Below, one piece after another: positions 20,422-33,420 of a stretch of DNA of 64,000 bases. A program made the translations under genes and the position numbers. The stretch is from positions 1,283,501 through 1,347,500 of the forward strand of contig NZ_CP137559.1 of the NCBI RefSeq assembly GCF_019249725.2. Reading direction: 5' to 3'. The notes below the pieces were generated by a model, which worked only from the letters and a program-made list of their open reading frames with translations, did not search any database and was not told where the DNA came from. Within the stretch, counting starts at the first letter, position 1. The number at the start of each line of letters is the position of its first letter. The stretch comes from Segatella hominis. Its GTDB lineage: Bacteria > Bacteroidota > Bacteroidia > Bacteroidales > Bacteroidaceae.

Positions 20422-20427
20422 CAAGAT

Positions 20428-20510
20428 GAATGTCACGGGGGTGCTGAGAGATCGGCTGAGATTATACCCATTGAACCTGACGCAGATAATGCTGACGCAG
20501 GGAAATATGA
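20428..20510 (+). promoter_or_regulatory. TPP riboswitch (THI element)
   Basis: Conserved core visible: CACGGGGGTGCTGAGA, GGCTGAGATTATACCC, TTGAACCTGA and the distal GATAATGCTGACGCAGGGAA. It binds thiamine pyrophosphate and here should act through the terminator at 20577-20619, which lies before thiS. It controls the downstream thiSEGCH genes. Confidence 0.95.
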
Positions 20511-20576
20511 TATAACCAAGAGGATAATGGCACTGGAATACTGCAAGATGAGTATCAGAAGGTGTATCCGAAAAGA

Positions 20577-25604: not shown

Positions 25605-26138
25605 TTATTTAAGTTCGTAGTCGGTATCGCCACCAGTTGTAGAACTTCCACCTGCCTGACTGTTGTCTCCAGTAGTCGTATTACCACCAATGGTGTTACT
25701 GTCGGCTCCATTACCAGTACCACTGCCTGAACCTGAAACTACTACATTGCTGGCTCTTCTAACACTTGCCGAAGTGTTAAGATTGGCATTGCTCAAAGTA
25801 CCGGTAGCACGGGCTCTGAGTTTTACACCGGTAATATTGTTTGCCGCAGTAAATTCTGCCTCAGTCTTGGCTCCCTCCTTATTGCGGATCCCCACGCTGA
25901 AGATGGCAAGGTTGTCAATCTTCACATTCTTACCAGCCAGGAGCTGCTCCTTGATACACTTCACCATGGCAGTCATCATGCCCAGGCACATCGCCTCAGT
26001 GAATCCCGTATTGTGCTCCTCCATGTGCTTGGCGAGTCCTGCCAAATCCATCGTCTCTTCTACCACAGGGAAAGCATACCACTTACCAAAAGCAAGACTC
26101 TTCTTGTTCTTGTTCTGCTTCAAAACGTACTTAATCAT
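25605..26138 (-). CDS. HU-related DNA-binding protein
   Basis: About 177 residues of the Bacteroidota HU-related (histone-like, putative) family: MIKYVLKQNKNKKSLAFGKWYAFPVV..., a TGFTEAMCLGMMTAM helix, GKNVKIDNLAIFSVGI and the FTAANNITGVKLRARA segment. The last 50 residues are low-complexity (Ser/Gly/Thr/Asn). Start at 26138 rather than 26147 (MKGMIKY). The family often accompanies DUF4248 and replication-like genes in accessory clusters, as here. The exact role is unknown. Confidence 0.85.
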   Translation of the reverse strand: MIKYVLKQNKNKKSLAFGKWYAFPVVEETMDLAGLAKHMEEHNTGFTEAMCLGMMTAMVKCIKEQLLAGKNVKIDNLAIFSVGIRNKEGAKTEAEFTAANNITGVKLRARATGTLSNANLNTSASVRRASNVVVSGSGSGTGNGADSNTIGGNTTTGDNSQAGGSSTTGGDTDYELK

Positions 26139-26237
26139 ACCTTTCAAAATTTTTAGTTAATTACTGTCAAATCCACATCTCTATTTTCCTTCAAAGGCAT
26201 AGGATCCATCGCCTTGTCCGTCAGAGAGTTTCATCGA

Positions 26238-26268
26238 GTAAACCCCTTTGGTTTACATAGCAAAGATA
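26238..26268 (-). promoter_or_regulatory. promoter -7 box and hairpin before the HU-related gene
   Basis: Minus strand TATCTTTG (26268-26261) followed by the hairpin GTAAACC-CCTTT-GGTTTAC (26238-26256), which would be at the very 5' end of the transcript. No good -33 box was found. Confidence 0.5.
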
Positions 26269-26337
26269 CAACATTTTGAAGGGTCATTCAGACGATAGCA
26301 TACGTTGCGTGAGATAGCATACTTTATAAGGATTTTC

Positions 26338-26559
26338 TTATGGTTCACCCAGATAATCAATGATAAGAGCTACCTCCTTAGGAGTGAAAAACTTGGCCGA
26401 CTTACGATAGCCTAACTTATGGAGTCCATTTACGAGATCCGGGTTGCGACGTACCCAAGCCATCAAGTGATTCACTGCCGTATGAGCCGAATTGGCTGTT
26501 GGAAAATAAAGCCAGGCAAGCTCTGACTTGCCATAGGCTCTGACTTTAAATTCTGTCAT
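26338..26559 (-). CDS. DUF4248 domain protein
   Basis: 73 residues. FKVRAYGKSELAWLYFPTANSAHTAVNHLMAWVRRNPDL matches the Bacteroidota DUF4248 family. Basic and helical, possibly DNA- or protein-binding. It belongs to the same accessory cluster as the HU-related and primase-like genes. Function unknown. Confidence 0.8.
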   Translation of the reverse strand: MTEFKVRAYGKSELAWLYFPTANSAHTAVNHLMAWVRRNPDLVNGLHKLGYRKSAKFFTPKEVALIIDYLGEP

Positions 26560-26653
26560 ATTATCAATCTTTTGAAATTACACAATGAATAAAATTATTA
26601 CCCTCATACTTACGCCTCGTAAAGATGATACTTACGGAGCGTAAACCTTATGT

Positions 26654-27727
26654 TTAGAAGGGACAGACATCAGAAGGAGGAGGCAGCAGGATTTCGGGTT
26701 TCTGCTGAGCCTCACCCAACAGGATATCGGCAATATCGGTGTTCGCCTCAAACTGCTCCATGAAGTCCACTACCCGATAATCCCAGCATCCGCTCTTCGC
26801 CATCTGCTCCTTCCACTTATCATACTCTCCGCTATCGGGATAAACCACGAGTCGCCGATGCAGCAAGGGGAGCAGCTTATCAGTCTGCAGATTGCCACAT
26901 CCGCCCGTTGCCAGCCATAGGAACTGTGGATAGCGGCAGGCACAGATAAGCGATGTCTTCTCACTCTCCACGATACATACCGTCTTATCGGGATAGCGGG
27001 GAAGCAGATGCCGTCCAAAGAGCACCTTTTCCGTATCCTGAAGCTGCGGTCCTACATGAGAACGTTCACAGATGGAACGCATGGTGTTGGCCCATCCCTG
27101 CACCCGATGACCGTCATTGCGATAAGCCATCAGCTTGGCATCATGCACCCGCTGCTGTTCGTCTATCAGCCAGAACACCACTGCTCTGCCATAATTCACC
27201 CCCTGCACAACGACGTCTCGGGCAGTACCTCCCACACAATAATCGTCTAGCACCTGCCGGGCATCACCACCGATGTTCAGGCCTTCAAGCCACATGCTGA
27301 AAGCACTCGGTCTCAGCATCGCCTTCTGTACCCATTCGGGGCTGAAGAACTCGGTCTGTCGCCTATCCTGAGGTTGCACCAGCAATCTGTTCTTACGGGA
27401 AAGCATTTCTCTGTTTCGGGCTTCATCTGCCCACTGATGCCTGTTTCCCAATCCCAGCAAGGGTTTACCATTTACATATTCCGTCTGGTAATCTTTCTTG
27501 CAGCTTAGCTCCGGATGATCATGGAAATATTGACGCGGTGGATAATGATAGCCACACGATGCCGTATGGTCGCATTTACCACATTCATCAGCCACATATT
27601 TGCCCGTCTCCAGATCCACATATCGGGTAAAGCACTTCTTGCGTCCACATTGAGGACAGACATAGCGATTGGAACCACCAGAACGATAACGCTCCAAAAT
27701 AAATCTGTTTTCTGTATCATTATACAT
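26654..27727 (-). CDS. DUF6371 primase-like (zinc finger + toprim-type) protein
   Basis: About 357 residues. The N-terminus has a zinc-ribbon CPQCGRKKCFTRY...DECGKCDHTASCGYH like DnaG-type primase zinc domains. The middle (CIVESEKTSLICACRYPQFLWLATGGCGNL) and VVYPDSGEYDKWKEQM look like toprim motifs (E in VESEKT, DSGEYD). DUF6371 is typical of Bacteroidota mobile and satellite elements. Start 27727 (MYNDTENRF). The site array at 27756-27958 lies directly upstream. Confidence 0.75.
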   Translation of the reverse strand: MYNDTENRFILERYRSGGSNRYVCPQCGRKKCFTRYVDLETGKYVADECGKCDHTASCGYHYPPRQYFHDHPELSCKKDYQTEYVNGKPLLGLGNRHQWADEARNREMLSRKNRLLVQPQDRRQTEFFSPEWVQKAMLRPSAFSMWLEGLNIGGDARQVLDDYCVGGTARDVVVQGVNYGRAVVFWLIDEQQRVHDAKLMAYRNDGHRVQGWANTMRSICERSHVGPQLQDTEKVLFGRHLLPRYPDKTVCIVESEKTSLICACRYPQFLWLATGGCGNLQTDKLLPLLHRRLVVYPDSGEYDKWKEQMAKSGCWDYRVVDFMEQFEANTDIADILLGEAQQKPEILLPPPSDVCPF

Positions 27728-27755
27728 ATTGCTCTGAAATTTAAATATAAAAAAT

Positions 27756-27958
27756 GTATCAGAGTGTATCATTTCCGCATTGATACAAAACAATCATTAA
27801 TCTATTGATATTCAGAATGTTATCACGTATCAAAGATGATACATTCCCTTTGTATCAGATACAGCAGTTGTATCACTCATGATACAGTCTAACTATATCT
27901 ATATCAATTAATTAAGTATCATTTTGTATCAAAAATCTGAATGATACATCCCTGATAC
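27756..27958. repeat. array of 12 GTATCA/TGATAC sites
   Basis: GTATCA or its complement TGATAC begins at 27756, 27766, 27781, 27827, 27837, 27852, 27870, 27880, 27916, 27926, 27942 and 27953. Five neighbouring pairs are spaced 10-11 bp, one helical turn. The array fills the gap between the ATPase and the primase-like gene, like iterons or a multi-site operator. Confidence 0.8.
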
Positions 27959-27980
27959 AAATACTTACTTCTTGTAAGGC

Positions 27981-29018
27981 TTACTTGCCTTTTCTGTTCA
28001 AGTTATTGCTCTTGGCAACACGCTGAACCATACTCGAACTGGTACCCAGTTTATCAGCAATGTCCCGATAAGACAAGCCAGGCTGCTTGAGTTCACGAAT
28101 GATATCGCGCTCCAGCTCTGCCTTCTCATCTCTTGATCTTGGCAGATGTGCCCGTTCTTCATCATAGCCTCCATATTCGAAATGGAGCCATCCGTCAGAA
28201 CTGGTCAACGTAAGTTCCTGCACGTTCTTGAAATCAAGTTCGATTGGGAGAGAACGATACTTCAGTTGGATGAGATAGCGCATGTTCTTGTCCTTTCTCG
28301 ATTTGTTGAAACCAATAACGTTATCGGCAAGGTTACTGAGAAGCTTGCTACCTGCCAGGTCGTCGATTGTAAGCGGATCGCCCTGCTTGCGCTTAGGTGT
28401 ATGGGCAAGGATGAGCATGGTACAGTTGTGAGTCATACGCATAGCTACCAGTTGCTGCATGATTTTTCCAGCTTCAGCTGACTCCTTAGAATTGATACAG
28501 AGATTGGTAAAGTTATCTATGATTATCACCTCTATATTCAGTTCCAGTGCCATTCGCTCTATCTCAGAAAGAATCATGCTCTGGTCGGTAACATCGTGCA
28601 TCTTGGTATAATCGATGCCAGCGTGGTAGAGCGTATTAGGAAACTCCTTGTTGGGATATCTCAAAGCCAATTGCTGCTGCGAAAGCTCAAAGTTGACATA
28701 AAGCACCCGCTTTCCCTGTTCAGCCAAGTCAATAGCTATCTGCATGGCGAGGACTGTTTTACCCACACCTGGACCGCTAAAGAGAATCGTAGTCTCTTGT
28801 TCCACCAGAATATGGGGACAAAGTTCCTTCGGTGGATCCATCCTCAGTCCTTCCATCCGGTAGTCATTGAAAGGAGACACATTGAAAAAGCTAGGCTTGT
28901 CCTGCTGCTGAACAGCCCCTGGAGCAAGAGCCTGAGCCTGTTTCTGGGATTCAGTCTGCTGAAGAGCAGCCTGAGCTACGATTTCATCCAATTCCTGTTT
29001 AGAATCTTTATTAATCAT
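27981..29018 (-). CDS. RepA-like AAA ATPase with C-terminal HTH
   Basis: About 345 residues, AAA_25/RecA-fold type as in plasmid RepA helicases. Walker A SGPGVGKTVLAMQIA at about 80-94, Walker B IEVIIIDNFTNL, sensor-like LILAHTPKRKQGDP and DLAGSKLLSNLADNVIGF. The C-terminus ELKQPGLSYRDIADKLGTSSSMVQRVAKSN is a helix-turn-helix. Start at 29018, with AGGAGG just upstream inside the preceding small ORF. With the primase-like gene and the site array it forms a replication-like module; no integrase is present. Confidence 0.8.
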   Translation of the reverse strand: MINKDSKQELDEIVAQAALQQTESQKQAQALAPGAVQQQDKPSFFNVSPFNDYRMEGLRMDPPKELCPHILVEQETTILFSGPGVGKTVLAMQIAIDLAEQGKRVLYVNFELSQQQLALRYPNKEFPNTLYHAGIDYTKMHDVTDQSMILSEIERMALELNIEVIIIDNFTNLCINSKESAEAGKIMQQLVAMRMTHNCTMLILAHTPKRKQGDPLTIDDLAGSKLLSNLADNVIGFNKSRKDKNMRYLIQLKYRSLPIELDFKNVQELTLTSSDGWLHFEYGGYDEERAHLPRSRDEKAELERDIIRELKQPGLSYRDIADKLGTSSSMVQRVAKSNNLNRKGK

Positions 29019-29019
29019 A

Positions 29020-29163
29020 CTATCCTCCTTTCTTGATATAATCAACAGATTCATTACTTGCCATCATCTCCTGCACGTGCTTGCGATAAGCCGCAGCCGG
29101 AGGGGCGTTGCTGTGGAGTAAATACTCATTGAGGATTTCTCCTATAGATAATACCTTTTTCAT
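29020..29163 (-). CDS. small conserved-looking ORF before the ATPase
   Basis: 47 residues, MKKVLSIGEILNEYLLHSNA...ASNESVDYIKKGG. Its stop lies 1 base before the ATPase ATG, and its last codons carry that gene's AGGAGG ribosome site, so translational coupling is likely. Mostly helical. Not recognised; supported only by position and codon pattern. Confidence 0.5.
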   Translation of the reverse strand: MKKVLSIGEILNEYLLHSNAPPAAAYRKHVQEMMASNESVDYIKKGG

Positions 29164-29649
29164 ATTTTATGAGGTATTAATCCTTCCGTCATCTTTGAAG
29201 CAATTTGCATTCAGATAGTCCAAGTCCTCAAGCTTCATTGTCAGGATGCTTGTCTGCCTGCTGGACTTAAGTGAATACAACGGACGATATCCAATAAGCC
29301 CCAGAGATTTTCATTCTATCAACTCCATCTGTCTTCAGTTTATTGAATACAAAAAAAGCCGATAAGAACTAAATCTCGCCGGCAAAATTACAATAGGCCT
29401 TGGTAAGGTTGCAAGCACCTTACCAAAACCTTACCAAAAATTTAAAATAAATTAAACTTTAATAGTAGATTTCCTATAACTTCCATACGCCCAGAACTGG
29501 CAGCAACTTCTAGTCCTGGGCAGCGTTCTAGATCATTTCAACATAATAATAATGCGCCCTATAATAATAGGACGCATTACTAATAGTATATGGGCTAAGC
29601 ATTTTTAGCTTTCAGCCTGTTCTTCAACTACTTTGAAGAGTTCAAAAAC
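29164..29649. other. spacer upstream of the accessory operon
   Basis: Apart from the promoter/operator at 29383-29439, I see only a 23-codon ORF (29169-29240, minus, MKLEDLDYLNANCF...) that could be a remnant or leader peptide, and AT-rich sequence with TAATAATA units around 29560. Confidence 0.4.
29383..29439 (-). promoter_or_regulatory. operator-like inverted repeat over a promoter
   Basis: Minus strand -7 box TAATTTTG (29390-29383). Immediately upstream lies TTGGTAAGGT (29399-29408), 7 bp, ACCTTACCAA and a further ACCTTACCAA direct copy. The sites cover the -20 to -45 region, where a repressor would block the accessory operon that reads toward 26338. Confidence 0.65.
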
Positions 29650-30537
29650 TCAGTCTTTATTGTTTGCTTTTTCAAGACAAACCTTGTAAAAGTTTTCTGC
29701 TTTATCTTCCAACTCCTCGAAAGTTTTTAAATAGGTATTTTTTTGAGCCTTAGTTGATTTACTTAAAAGAGATGAATATTTACCGTCTTTCAATCGGGCG
29801 GAGTGAAAAGCTTCACTCATCAGATCCATTACATCAACCTGATTAACTTTGCCACCATCTTTTTTCACAAAATAATTAGCATCACACATTGCTTTTATAA
29901 CTTTAATGAAATCAGACAAACGTTTTTCCTTAATACATATATCAGAAGTTTTATCCGATTGTGTTTTGCTTTTCTGCTCTACTTGATTTGCTAAATCCGC
30001 CAAACTATCCTGTGTATCTACATCTGGCTCTATAAAACCAGGCACTTGAATATTCTTCTTCGATAAAGTTTCATTAACCTCATATTCTATTGCCGCAAGA
30101 AGTTCGAAACCTTTATCTGACAAACTGTAATAATTGAATTTTACTGCAATCCATTTATTTCGCCTCAAACAGAATAATCTTTCAAAAAAAGTGGAATCAT
30201 CCTTAATTTCTTTGGAAAAAGCATTAGAACCATTATTTTTTAAATCGAGAAGAATTTTGTAGTCACATTCTCTTATGTTTCTTGCATAAAGAGCATGATT
30301 AAGGATTTTCTTTTCTAGTTTTTTTAAATCATCCAATACAGCACGTCCGGCCATATTAATCTGTGAAGAAACGACTTTTCCTCCTTCTTCAAAAGTTGCA
30401 TATACCAAATCTTTCCGTTTGAGTAATTGTACTGCAATACAGAACTGAGCATCAGTTAATCCTTTTGGAGCTTTATCATGTTGCTCACCATCTGACAATG
30501 TTCGCAAAACGCGAAATTCATTAATGCTTATACTCAT
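29650..30537 (-). CDS. protein of unknown function, winged-helix-like N-terminus
   Basis: About 295 residues, lysine- and asparagine-rich, from an AT-rich gene whose composition differs from the core genes nearby. Residues 1-75 (INEFRVLRTLSDGEQHD...LTDAQFCIAVQLLKRKDLVYATFEEGGKVVSSQINMAGRAVLDDL) and again 90-165 look like two MarR/winged-helix-type modules. The C-terminus is helical. Start at 30537 (MSISINEF), about 27 bp after the -7 box TAACTTTG (30571-30564). The function is unknown; it lies between the replication-like module and the methyltransferase system and points away from the latter. Confidence 0.65.
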   Translation of the reverse strand: MSISINEFRVLRTLSDGEQHDKAPKGLTDAQFCIAVQLLKRKDLVYATFEEGGKVVSSQINMAGRAVLDDLKKLEKKILNHALYARNIRECDYKILLDLKNNGSNAFSKEIKDDSTFFERLFCLRRNKWIAVKFNYYSLSDKGFELLAAIEYEVNETLSKKNIQVPGFIEPDVDTQDSLADLANQVEQKSKTQSDKTSDICIKEKRLSDFIKVIKAMCDANYFVKKDGGKVNQVDVMDLMSEAFHSARLKDGKYSSLLSKSTKAQKNTYLKTFEELEDKAENFYKVCLEKANNKD

Positions 30538-30765
30538 ATAATTAAAACTATTTAATTTTTTTTCAAAGTTACTGCTTTTTCTTGATAGCAAAAAATAAAA
30601 TAACATTTTTTAAACTATAGAAAAGAACAAAACTCTACACTTTTAAAGAATTTATTGAGCTTTTTTATGGGTTCAGGAGAAGATAATAAAGTGCGGAAGA
30701 GATTGAAAAACGCTTTTCTCGAAAACTTTTTCAGAGAAACTTACAATAATCTCAATTATTCTTTG

Positions 30766-30773
30766 TACCTTTG
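30766..30773 (+). promoter_or_regulatory. -7 box of the methyltransferase operon
   Basis: TACCTTTG matches TAnnTTTG. It would start a transcript near 30780, leaving about 340 bases of leader before the ATG at 31119. Confidence 0.55.
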
Positions 30774-30779
30774 CCGATA

Positions 30780-31060
30780 GATTAGGCGGAAGCCTTTTCC
30801 AAGACATCGTTGGTAAAAAAAGCATTCGCTATTATTTCGCGTTTAGCCAAGAGCGTCGGAAACTCATTTGGAATAACAAGCACGGAAATAATATGTGATA
30901 GGTGGCTCGTATATATATGTTTCGTATGAAGCCCCTTATCTACCAGGTAAAGCAATGCAAGCACGCTATAGGCGTGATGCATTCTTATGGTAGATCTGGG
31001 GCTCCATCCGACGCCGCCCCGTGCTAAACGCGATAAGAGGCATCACGCCCTTTTTGCGTC
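30780..31060 (+). ncRNA. candidate structured leader RNA of the methyltransferase/HNH operon
   Basis: Successive helices are visible: GGC-GGAA-GCC (30789-30798, GNRA loop), CCAA-GACATCG-TTGG, CCAA...TTTGG again, then a 74-base hairpin. In the long hairpin (30930-31003) AGCCCC/GGGGCT, ATCTACC/GGTAGAT, AATGCA/TGCATT and CACGC/GCGTG give about 24 base pairs with small symmetric interruptions. A later segment GCATCACGCC (31040-31049), followed by C and TTTTT, can instead pair with GGCGTGATGC (30971-30980). No known RNA family was recognised. Confidence 0.55.
31040..31056 (+). terminator. possible conditional terminator in the leader
   Basis: GCATCACGCC followed by CTTTTT is complementary over ten bases to 30971-30980, and GCCCC (31016-31020) to GGGGC (30998-31002). 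If formed, this fold would look like a terminator and would break the upper part of the long hairpin. Confidence 0.4.
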
Positions 31061-31066
31061 TTAGCG

Positions 31067-31110
31067 GATTGATAGTTGTTTGCAGATGTCTTGTCTTATA
31101 ACTATCAATC
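31067..31110 (+). promoter_or_regulatory. 11 bp inverted repeat before the methyltransferase start
   Basis: GATTGATAGTT (31067-31077) and AACTATCAATC (31100-31110) are perfect complements around a 22-base loop. They end 8 bp before the ATG and could be an RNA hairpin controlling translation or a protein-binding site. Confidence 0.6.
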
Positions 31111-31118
31111 AAAAGTAT

Positions 31119-32183
31119 ATGGCAAACAAAAATCTGAATGCCGCCAAGACGGCAAAGAAGGATGAGTTCTATACTCAACTTTCTGACATAGAGCGAGAAT
31201 TGCAGCATTATTGGCAGCACTTCCGCGGGAAGGTTGTGCTCTGTAATTGTGATGATCCCTACGAAAGCAACTTCTTTAAGTATTTTGCTCTTCGCTTCAA
31301 CCAGTTGGGTTTGAAGAAACTTATTTGTACCTGTTATAATGGTTCTCCTGTAACGGGCAATGAACTCATGCTCCATTTTGAAGGATTTGGCGATGAAGAA
31401 CCAAAGAAAATTGCCTACAAAGTGGAGATTACGGAAGTAAAAGATGAAAACGGAGATGGGGCTGTTGACCTATCGGATGTTCGTTATCTTTTGGAGAACG
31501 ACAAGAACGTGATGTCGATATTGCAGACTGGCGACTTTCGTTCAAGCGAATGCATTGAACTCCTAAAAGAAGCAGATATCGTAGTTACAAATCCTCCATT
31601 CTCTTTGTTCCGAGAGTATATTGGGCAGTTGATGAAATATGATAAGAAGTTCCTGATAATTGGTCCTCAGAATGCGATTCATTACAAAGAAGTTTTTCCT
31701 TTAATTAAAAACAATCAACTTTGGTTAGGTTATGGCTTCAAAGGTTGTGCAGCTCATTTTTATTCTCCATATGAGGACATCGCAACAGCTGCCAATCATC
31801 GGGAAAATATGATTCGTGTTTCAGGCGTTACCTGGTTTACTAATCTCGAAATTTCTAAACGTCATGAAATGTTAGTAATGGTTTGTCGTTATTCAAAAGA
31901 TGATTATCCTAAATACGACAATTTCGATGCTATAGATGTCAGCAAAACTATTGATATTCCCTGTGATTATGATGGGATTATGGGAGTACCCGACACCATG
32001 CTTTACGCATTTAATCCTGAACAATTTGAAATTATCGGTCTCGGTAATGGAGATTTAGCTAAGGAAATAGGAATTACAAAAAATTATAGAGGACGAACAG
32101 ATTTGGCCTATACCAAAGAAGGTAAACACAAATGTCCTTATAGTAGAATATTGATCCGTAACAAACATCCACAAACATTATGA
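31119..32183 (+). CDS. EcoRI-family adenine-specific DNA methyltransferase
   Basis: About 354 residues. MANKNLNAAKTAKKDEFYTQLSDIERELQHY is the M.EcoRI-family N-terminus. The catalytic motif IV is NPPF (in VVTNPPFSLFREYI, about residue 160), and the AdoMet region includes KVVLCNCDDPYESNFFKYFA. The family makes N6-methyladenine. Start at 31119. The TGA overlaps the next gene's ATG (ATGA), so the two are co-translated. No EcoRI-type restriction gene is nearby; the DUF262-HNH gene takes that place. Confidence 0.9.
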   Translation: MANKNLNAAKTAKKDEFYTQLSDIERELQHYWQHFRGKVVLCNCDDPYESNFFKYFALRFNQLGLKKLICTCYNGSPVTGNELMLHFEGFGDEEPKKIAYKVEITEVKDENGDGAVDLSDVRYLLENDKNVMSILQTGDFRSSECIELLKEADIVVTNPPFSLFREYIGQLMKYDKKFLIIGPQNAIHYKEVFPLIKNNQLWLGYGFKGCAAHFYSPYEDIATAANHRENMIRVSGVTWFTNLEISKRHEMLVMVCRYSKDDYPKYDNFDAIDVSKTIDIPCDYDGIMGVPDTMLYAFNPEQFEIIGLGNGDLAKEIGITKNYRGRTDLAYTKEGKHKCPYSRILIRNKHPQTL

Positions 32184-33304
32184 TGACAATTAAACAACTT
32201 GAAGTAACCATCGGTGAGATAACCAAGGGTTACATCAACAATGAAGAACAAGGAGTACGTGGCTATAATGGGCTTTTGGATATCCGTCCACCTTATCAGC
32301 GAGAATTCATCTATAACGAAACCGAACAACGTGCCGTCATCAACACCGTGCTTAATAAATATCCGCTCAATGTAATGTACTGGGTGAAGAGAAGTGATGA
32401 TGCAGAATGTCCTTATGAGGTAATGGACGGACAGCAACGCACTCTTTCACTATGTCAGTACGTAGCAGGAAAATTTGCAGTTGATTTTAAATATTTCGAT
32501 AATCAACCAGCCGATGATCAGAAGAAAATTCTCGACTATAAGCTGACAGTATATGTTTGTGAAGGTAAGGAGTCAGAAAAACAGGAATGGTTCAAGACCA
32601 TCAATATTGCCGGCAAGCCATTGAATGAGCAAGAAATCCGCAATGCAGTTTATGCAGGGCCTTTCGTTAGTGATGCAAAACACCATTTCTCCAAAAGCAA
32701 TTGCGGGGCTTATCGCCTAGGTAAGGATTTGGTAAATGGTTCACCTATCCGCCAAGACTTTTTCAAAAAGGCTTTAGAGTGGATGGCGGAACATGAAACT
32801 CGCAATGGAAAGCCACAAAGTGCCGTTGGCTATATGGCGATTCATCAACACGACAAGAATGCCATTCCTCTTTGGACTTATTTTCAAAACGTACTGAATT
32901 GGGCCATTTCTACTTTCAACATGAAGAAATTCAAAATCATCATGAAGGGTGTGGATTGGGCTTTGTTTTATGACAAATATCATGAACAGCCATTGGATAT
33001 CAAGGCGATGGAGGATAGAATCTCAGATCTTATCGGTGATGATGAGATTCAGAAGCCAAATGGTATTATTCCTTACGTGTTAACTGGCGATGAGCGTTAT
33101 CTGGATCTTCGTACTTTTAAGGATAAGGTTAAGAAGGCAATATGGGAAAAACAGAACCATAAATGCGCCATCTGTGGCAAAGAGTTTGACTTTGAATTTA
33201 TGGAGGGCGACCACATCAAGCCTTGGCGAGAAGGTGGAAGAACCGACATCAAAAATTGCCAAATGCTTTGCCGACAGTGCAATCGTAGTAAGGGGAGCAA
33301 ATAA
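32180..33304 (+). CDS. DUF262-HNH endonuclease
   Basis: 374 residues. N-terminal DUF262 (ParB/sulfiredoxin-like NTPase fold, as in GmrS): RPPYQREFIYNETEQRAVINTVL, PYEVMDGQQRTLSL with the DGQQR core, then KPLNEQEIRNAVYAG. The C-terminal HNH domain has CAICGKEF, EGDHIKPWREGGRTDIKNCQMLCRQCNRSKGSK with four zinc Cys and catalytic His. DUF262 proteins are known in type IV modification-dependent restriction. Pairing with an adenine methyltransferase suggests a two-gene restriction-modification-like defence unit. Confidence 0.88.
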   Translation: MMTIKQLEVTIGEITKGYINNEEQGVRGYNGLLDIRPPYQREFIYNETEQRAVINTVLNKYPLNVMYWVKRSDDAECPYEVMDGQQRTLSLCQYVAGKFAVDFKYFDNQPADDQKKILDYKLTVYVCEGKESEKQEWFKTINIAGKPLNEQEIRNAVYAGPFVSDAKHHFSKSNCGAYRLGKDLVNGSPIRQDFFKKALEWMAEHETRNGKPQSAVGYMAIHQHDKNAIPLWTYFQNVLNWAISTFNMKKFKIIMKGVDWALFYDKYHEQPLDIKAMEDRISDLIGDDEIQKPNGIIPYVLTGDERYLDLRTFKDKVKKAIWEKQNHKCAICGKEFDFEFMEGDHIKPWREGGRTDIKNCQMLCRQCNRSKGSK

Positions 33305-33337
33305 AATAGTTAAACCTTGTTATTCTCCTATTCTATT

Positions 33338-33420
33338 GTGGCAGTTGGCGCTTTTTCGTTGTGACAGTTGGCGCTTTTTCGTTGTGGCAGTTGGCGCTTT
33401 TTCGTTGTGGCAGTTGGCGG
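33338..33420 (+). repeat. 23 bp tandem repeat, about 3.6 copies
   Basis: Units GTGGCAGTTGGCGCTTTTTCG + TT start at 33338, 33361 (one change, GTGACAG), 33384 and 33407 (partial). They are contiguous, with no spacers, and lie just after the HNH gene. GGCG and TTTTT in each unit could act as weak terminators. Confidence 0.9.

Follow-up and report, generated by a model that had tools for sequence, protein, structure and literature searches.

Among the described relatives of the locus considered here are type II restriction-modification systems with a methyltransferase of the M.EcoRI family; in the case of M.EcoRI, the partner nuclease is of the PD-(D/E)XK type. The locus occupies positions 30766–33304 of a 64,000-nucleotide stretch of Segatella hominis DNA (Bacteroidota; Bacteroidia; Bacteroidales; Bacteroidaceae; contig NZ_CP137559.1, positions 1,283,501 to 1,347,500 of the forward strand), hereafter called the window. 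It consists of a promoter word, a leader of about 340 bases, a gene encoding an EcoRI-family adenine-specific DNA methyltransferase and a gene encoding a DUF262-HNH protein, in this order and in one direction. The original prediction had described this arrangement, including the structured nature of the leader and the ATGA overlap of the two genes, and all of it was confirmed. According to the present analysis, the new part of the locus is the leader, which belongs to an undescribed family of structured RNAs, whereas the gene pair is already known.

The mechanisms of restriction control described in the accessible part of a 2025 review (PMC12707154) are promoter methylation, repressor methyltransferases, antisense RNA and C proteins. 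The same text mentions possible translational control of restriction, among other things by hairpins where the nuclease starts, whereas "riboswitch", "attenuat", "leader" and "untranslated" gave no matches in it. The median 5' untranslated region in Bacteroides thetaiotaomicron is 32 bases according to the accessible part of PMC7366714, so the leader of the window is unusually long. No description of the leader RNA was found in the accessible literature searched, which did not extend to the supplementary lists of nameless human-microbiome RNA candidates (PMC8040213), where an earlier nameless sighting is possible.

Fold and conservation of the leader RNA

The leader is a conserved pseudoknotted RNA, to an extent that exceeds chance. 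The fold of positions 30766–31120 has an energy of −122.9 kcal/mol (z −5.17), and none of 100 shuffled sequences folded equally well. The conserved 5' module of the leader (30818–30898; this and all other elements of the locus lie on the plus strand) was represented by R1, a covariance model of its 81 positions built on 58 distinct sequences; the window scores 101.3 bits with this model, its own sequence being among the 58. Pair analysis revealed helix P2, formed by strands TATTATTTC (30830–30838) and GAAATAATA (30885–30893), which encloses strand A (CGTTTAGC, 30840–30847) and hairpin P3. Strand A pairs as helix P1 with strand A' (GCTAAACG, 31023–31030), and the crossing of P2 by this helix makes the structure a pseudoknot. 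The loop of P3 carries the word GCGTCGG (30853–30859), the 5' half of a loop-loop contact; the 3' half, CCGACGC (31008–31014), lies in the loop of hairpin P6 (GGGG/CCCC, 30998–31020). The fold also contains a central hairpin, P5 (30938–30995), with the parts ATCTACCA/TGGTAGAT and CACGC/GCGTG. Downstream of A' are its alternative partner, strand A'' (GCGTCTTAGC, 31056–31065; hairpin P7), and the terminal stem P8 (GATTGATAGTT/AACTATCAATC, 31067–31110), which adjoins the start codon and ends eight bases ahead of the ATG at 31119.

Conservation was assessed in a set of 62 extracted leaders, from which the broken leaders L026 and L029 were excluded; 60 were aligned and 58 were distinct. L051–L057 and L070 had been excluded as second copies of loci already included, and L067, without a local match, is outside the 58. 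Strands A and A' are fully paired in 53 of the 58 leaders (the exceptions are L037, L061, L062, L066 and L069). The P3 and P6 loop words are exactly complementary in 56 of the 58, in nine versions of the word, compared with 33 of 2758 combinations when words of other versions were crossed. An alignment of 56 sequences, which omits L037 (internal duplication) and L061 (a near twin of L062), contained 35 pairs. In this alignment, 93.8% of the cells were paired, against 37.5–47.7% for slid partners, with 95.5% for P6 and 81.5% for the CACGC/GCGTG part of P5. Covariation, proposed as a check in the original prediction, was found: 22 of the 35 pairs had changed on both sides (shuffled mean 7.8, with none of 500 shuffles as high), although relatedness is not removed from this or the other pairing counts. 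The leader thus has the conserved, covarying fold in a 5' leader that is one of the marks of a riboswitch. In the 3' part of the L037 leader, the segment with the P6 loop word is duplicated internally.

The loop contact was also found beyond the alignment. It was present in 13 of 16 loci from other families of the order and in 12 of 16 weak matches from the family (crosses: 15 of 942). Among the misses, L085 and L086 (order) have one mismatch, L151 and L163 (family) look like wrongly picked words, and L080 (order), L156 and L157 (family) look broken. In loci from named genomes, retrieved with an exact core pattern in which 20 bases are fixed, the contact was present in 71 of 75 (51 of these 75 being absent from the alignment); of the 80 loci considered, four were too short for this test and L190 had no loop word by the script rule.

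Of the 301 family genomes searched, 52 contain DNA similar to the leader at E ≤ 0.001. The R1 model gave 84 matches in 61 of the same 301 genomes; in the order, 14 of the 295 genomes had matches, 16 in all, across eight other families. No R1 match was found in 247 genomes drawn from the phylum; this zero shows little, since the set contained no genome known to match. The nearest genome, G001, which is 59% complete, has no R1 match. The exact core pattern was found in at least 119 stretches of named genomes, and most of the 80 matches listed belong, by title, to rumen or gut Prevotella and to other Bacteroidales. No match to the leader DNA was detected among records of phages (50,697) and plasmids (72,556), and the exact core pattern had none in viral contigs; a phage or plasmid origin of the RNA is therefore not supported. 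A known RNA family was also rejected. Rfam 15 showed no family at its gathering cut-off in the window leader, four matches far below their cut-offs when E values up to 10 were allowed, and only tRNAs in 20 related loci of several subtypes, both main ones included.

The gene pair and other genes behind the leader

The methyltransferase (31119–32183, 354 amino acids) contains the PF13651 domain (Pfam, E 2.1e-145) and matches PADLOC model MTase_II (PDLC03297, E 3.9e-123) over nearly its full length. Its start was placed at ATG 31119, rather than TTG 31080, which gives the N-terminus MANKNLNAAK common to the relatives. The DUF262 (GmrSD_N)-HNH protein (32180–33304) matches PADLOC model REase_II (PDLC03418, E 1.3e-117) with residues 3–372 of 374. 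In Pfam at E up to 0.001, it shows PF03235 (GmrSD_N, E 1e-18), HNH PF01844, PF14279 and PF02945 only, and its DUF262 domain bears the DGQQR motif. Since both proteins fit PADLOC type II models near end to end, the pair is, judging by its sequence, a recognised kind of type II restriction-modification, and the proposal that the locus is an undescribed defence system did not hold. Most likely, the pair acts as an ordinary type II system, in which the methyltransferase would protect adenines in the target site and the DUF262-HNH protein would cut unprotected DNA. The HNH part weakly resembles IscB (36.6 bits, cut-off 175) and Cas9d (24.3 bits, cut-off 375). The IscB model was thus below its cut-off and matched the HNH part only, and no omega RNA family was found in the Rfam search, which places the protein outside IscB/HEARO. 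In a search of solved structures, the HNH part had three weak matches and the methyltransferase had none.

In the first 30 loci, the leader is followed by an EcoRI-type methyltransferase in 22 and by a DUF262 gene in 21. The three-part arrangement recurs in other Bacteroidales. In the order set, nine of the 16 R1 loci precede the methyltransferase, by eye; behind the leader are a ResIII-type helicase in L076 and an acyltransferase in L078, and L079–L082 and L086 are unclear or broken. For 50 of the 84 R1 matches in the family, the gene behind the leader is a restriction gene (type I, II or III). These include 43 loci with an EcoRI-type methyltransferase within 2 kb (42 within 600 bases). The remaining 41 loci were classified by eye. 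Seven of them carry other restriction genes: HSDR_N (L052, L054), an N6_N4 methyltransferase adjoined by REase_II (L053), the M and S genes of type I (L042), type III (L154 and, by likeness, L163) and, with a broken leader in front, Eco47II together with a C5 methyltransferase (L157). Six encode large proteins without an assigned family (L051, L055, L045, L147, L035 and, together with DUF4268, L037). Another 23 precede other genes, namely acyltransferases (L063, L066, L069, L152), leucine-rich repeat (LRR), immunoglobulin-like and sulfatase proteins (L058, L059, L150, L151), RNase_T (L032), an AbiC-like protein (L049), DUF4886 (L164), and secreted proteins or ones without an assigned family. 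The last five are broken leaders (L026, L029, L156) or lie at contig ends (L148, L155). In L029 (G212:C13), the leader's 5' part runs into what appears to be the tail of an HNH gene, and L305 looks similar; in L026 (G247:C14), the leader stops after the 5' module.

Classification of the named core-pattern loci was possible for the 71 with at least 700 bases downstream, nine of the 80 being too short. An EcoRI-type methyltransferase is present in 54 (with a DUF262 gene in 48), an L053-type methyltransferase in two, an HSDR_N protein in one and a protein of the ~780-amino-acid type in six. Analysis of the remaining eight showed HsdM (L166), an adenine methyltransferase (L200), by eye a broken EcoRI-type gene (L184), proteins of the ~830-amino-acid type (L187, L192), a glycosyltransferase (L168), by eye an LRR-like protein (L223), and a broken leader (L182). 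In total, 60 of the 71 have restriction genes or their remnants, eight have large proteins and three have neither; because of the 60, the core-pattern class is considered much richer in restriction genes than the looser R1 model. The large leader-bearing proteins fall at ~780 amino acids (L051, L055, L045, L147) and ~830 amino acids (L035, L187, L192). No Pfam or PADLOC family was found for those of L051, L045, L035 and L187, and methylase-like motifs were seen by eye; these proteins are candidate undescribed defence genes.

The leader has the features of a portable module. The word TAccTTTG (30766–30773), which we take to be the −7 promoter type of Bacteroidota, precedes it in the window. Of the 57 relatives whose flank is long enough, 50 have a TAnnTTTG word no more than 120 bases upstream of the core, compared with 22 of 408 control windows. 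From the end of R1 to the methyltransferase domain, the distance is 193–264 bases in 42 of 44 pairs and 1175 and 1328 bases in the other two. Eight pairs of loci, picked for alike leaders and unlike genes, have leaders 75–86% identical, from the promoter or the start of the core to near or before the gene start. Their fetched flanks show no further match, save for one pair that matches again ~3.9 kb downstream. Gene types are mixed on the leader tree (L035 with L033; L045 with L039 and L027), a tree with 24 of 53 inner branches open and a bootstrap that is not settled. Because such similar leaders precede unrelated genes, the leader is not the third part of one system. An undescribed three-part defence system was therefore rejected, the pair being of a known type II kind and the leader common to unrelated genes. 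Nor is this RNA fixed to the modifier and cutter, as had been proposed, since it also precedes other restriction systems and non-defence genes.

Several methyltransferases without an R1 match carry a different leader of the same plan. Model R2, constructed from nine such leaders, gave 124 matches in 78 of the 301 family genomes, of which 19 precede the methyltransferase; because of this small share, the superfamily as a whole is not regarded as defence-specific. Thirty R2 loci were fetched and read by eye: 15 have an EcoRI-type methyltransferase, L297 and L306 an MmeI-like type IIG enzyme, and L290 a tetratricopeptide repeat protein, the others having secreted proteins or ones without an assigned family, or being broken or cut off by the end of a contig. 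In 27 of 29 loci, compared with 116 of 780 crosses, the R2 loop regions share a perfect complement whose longest form reaches at least seven bases; this is sometimes a neighbouring helix. Weak R2 matches (L306–L313) are followed by secreted or other proteins, and in several of them the loop words are complementary but new in sequence. The RNA superfamily probably extends beyond R1 and R2 as described.

The methyltransferase itself gave 123 matches in the family, of which 111 start at profile positions 1–3 (fragments and two matches below the Pfam cut-off included). In 63 of the 111, R1 (44) or R2 (19) lies within 2 kb upstream, in 61 of them within 600 bases. A small helix-turn-helix (HTH) gene was found upstream of the methyltransferase in four of 24 scanned loci without an R1 or R2 match (L136, L317, L318, L320), and the two that were typed match HTH_3. 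The HTH words by which a C-protein gene was sought occur in none of the 58 leader loci, the window included. The RNA leader and the HTH gene may be alternative occupants of one slot, the numbers being small.

Possible control by the leader and rival explanations

A role of the leader as controller of the genes behind it appears probable. In a more complete form, towards which we lean, the leader would be a cis-acting riboregulator, a module that travels with its own promoter and controls the operon behind it; its transcript, its regulation and the signal are what we infer. Strand A' would have two possible partners, A at the 5' end in the compact fold and A'' just upstream of P8, and would be held by one or the other. 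The summed energy of A':A'' was −558.6 for own partners and −510.1 on average for permuted ones (standard deviation 10.8), none of 2000 permutations being as low, with relatedness not removed; in 42 of 58 leaders, the energy with the own partner was more favourable than the mean of the crosses. A P8 word of the TTGATAG type was read in 51 of 58 leaders, and in 42 of these an exact complement to it, six bases long, is present ahead of the start codon (the script gave 43, including one within the gene). As P8 lies over the translation start region, the choice of fold would gate the translation of both proteins, reaching the nuclease by way of the ATGA overlap with the methyltransferase gene. A metabolite, a protein, a small RNA or an infection-linked change could flip the fold. 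Since a search for terminator-like sites in the leader of the window gave none, gating of translation is proposed instead of termination. A P7–P8 loop contact was sought by eye, and no consistent covariation was seen.

Several observations weigh against this interpretation. The P8 word is missing in seven of the 58 leaders (L049, L050, L059, L060, L063, L064, L068), which precede genes outside restriction-modification, one of them AbiC-like, so the P8 gate cannot be universal. Besides restriction systems, the leader precedes acyltransferases, surface proteins and an AbiC-like gene, and the genes behind it form no pathway that would suggest a ligand. Only 43 of 84 R1 and 19 of 124 R2 matches precede the methyltransferase. 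Conversely, 48 of the 111 methyltransferase matches have no leader by the R1 and R2 models. The original prediction would have been refuted by a gene pair occurring widely without the leader; for the methyltransferase, these 48 copies bear that out in part. An unfiltered search in 20 of the 48 leaderless loci detected three further leaders, clear for L319 and L329 and weaker for L327. The HTH argument is accordingly thin: these three were among the 24 scanned loci and proved to have diverged leaders, the HTH gene of L317 has an in-frame stop, and the scan of L128 fell on a stretch inside a gene.

The own promoter word, the unrelated genes behind the leader and the lack of a common pathway among them would equally be expected of a constitutive expression device, that is, a portable promoter with a folded 5' end that stabilises the mRNA or aids translation and does not switch. 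This explanation is nevertheless unlikely. P8 covers the region of the start, and structure there would be expected to impede initiation; the pseudoknot, the loop contact and the alternative pairing exceed the needs of a stabilising hairpin; and a few leaderless loci have an HTH gene in the place of the leader. It is very improbable that the RNA itself functions within the defence machinery, for instance in trans, with the methyltransferase or nuclease binding it or using it as a guide. The position before the methyltransferase in 22 of the first 30 loci and the weak likeness of the HNH domain to IscB and Cas9d, which use RNAs, agree with it, but that likeness spans the HNH part only with scores far from the cut-offs, similar leaders precede genes of unrelated families, and the 48 leaderless methyltransferases have no such RNA by the two models.

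The similarity between leaders before unrelated genes that ends near the gene start, the mixed gene types on the leader tree and the broken copies L026, L029 and L157 might also reflect a site of recombination or insertion, like a folded attC, which exchanges gene cassettes and whose fold matters as single-stranded DNA. However, the upstream flanks are without similarity in the eight pairs compared, a promoter word adjoins, and the spacing and orientation relative to the methyltransferase are near-fixed. No arrays were seen in the loci read, integrases not having been searched for, and a pseudoknot with a loop contact would, as we understand such sites, be unexpected in a simple folded attachment site. 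We therefore consider a recombination site a poor candidate, at the same low level as an RNA component of the machinery.

The riboregulator reading can be extended, tentatively and with considerable doubt, to the large superfamily of pseudoknotted leader RNAs, which would be an exchangeable RNA controller. Its TTGATAG-stem class would serve several restriction types, as C proteins do elsewhere, through strand exchange at the start codon on a signal linked to infection or establishment, and the large leader-bearing proteins would be new defence genes.

Surroundings of the locus and comparison with known systems

On the minus strand of the window, positions 25605–30606 encode a HU-HIG protein, a DUF6371/PG0870-type protein, an AAA_25 ATPase with an HTH and a 318-amino-acid protein without a Pfam family; these genes may represent an integrated mobile element. 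Nothing was found that ties the function of the locus to the neighbouring replication-like module. Directly downstream of the HNH gene (33336–33419) are 3.7 tandem copies of a 23-base unit (TTGTGGCAGTTGGCGCTTTTTCG), and a thiamine pyrophosphate (TPP) riboswitch (RF00059, 58 bits) is located at 20427–20520.

A conserved folded RNA common to several restriction types would add a further layer to the control of restriction. As a controller, the leader would make the avoidance of self-restriction after acquisition of a system testable in Bacteroidales, and it offers a search hook toward the large candidate defence proteins of ~780 (L051/L045) and ~830 amino acids (L035/L187).

As for the type IV enzymes of the GmrSD group, the DUF262 domain with DGQQR, a motif named for this domain in the accessible part of PMC4619093, and the HNH nuclease are shared with them, and the GmrS features are present in the protein of the window. 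In contrast, its HNH domain is PF01844, a methyltransferase is encoded upstream, and the GmrD domain PF07510 was not found in the protein by Pfam at E up to 0.001. The type II systems with an M.EcoRI-family methyltransferase are likewise operons of two proteins, and both proteins here match near full length; the locus differs by its DUF262-HNH partner and by the long RNA leader of the operon. With riboswitch-like leaders, the locus shares a long structured 5' leader with a conserved core, a pseudoknot and a possible alternative pairing near the start codon, and differs from them in having no Rfam match and in the lack of a common pathway among the genes. Finally, as in restriction systems controlled by C proteins, a regulator-like element stands ahead of the operon; here, this element is an RNA.

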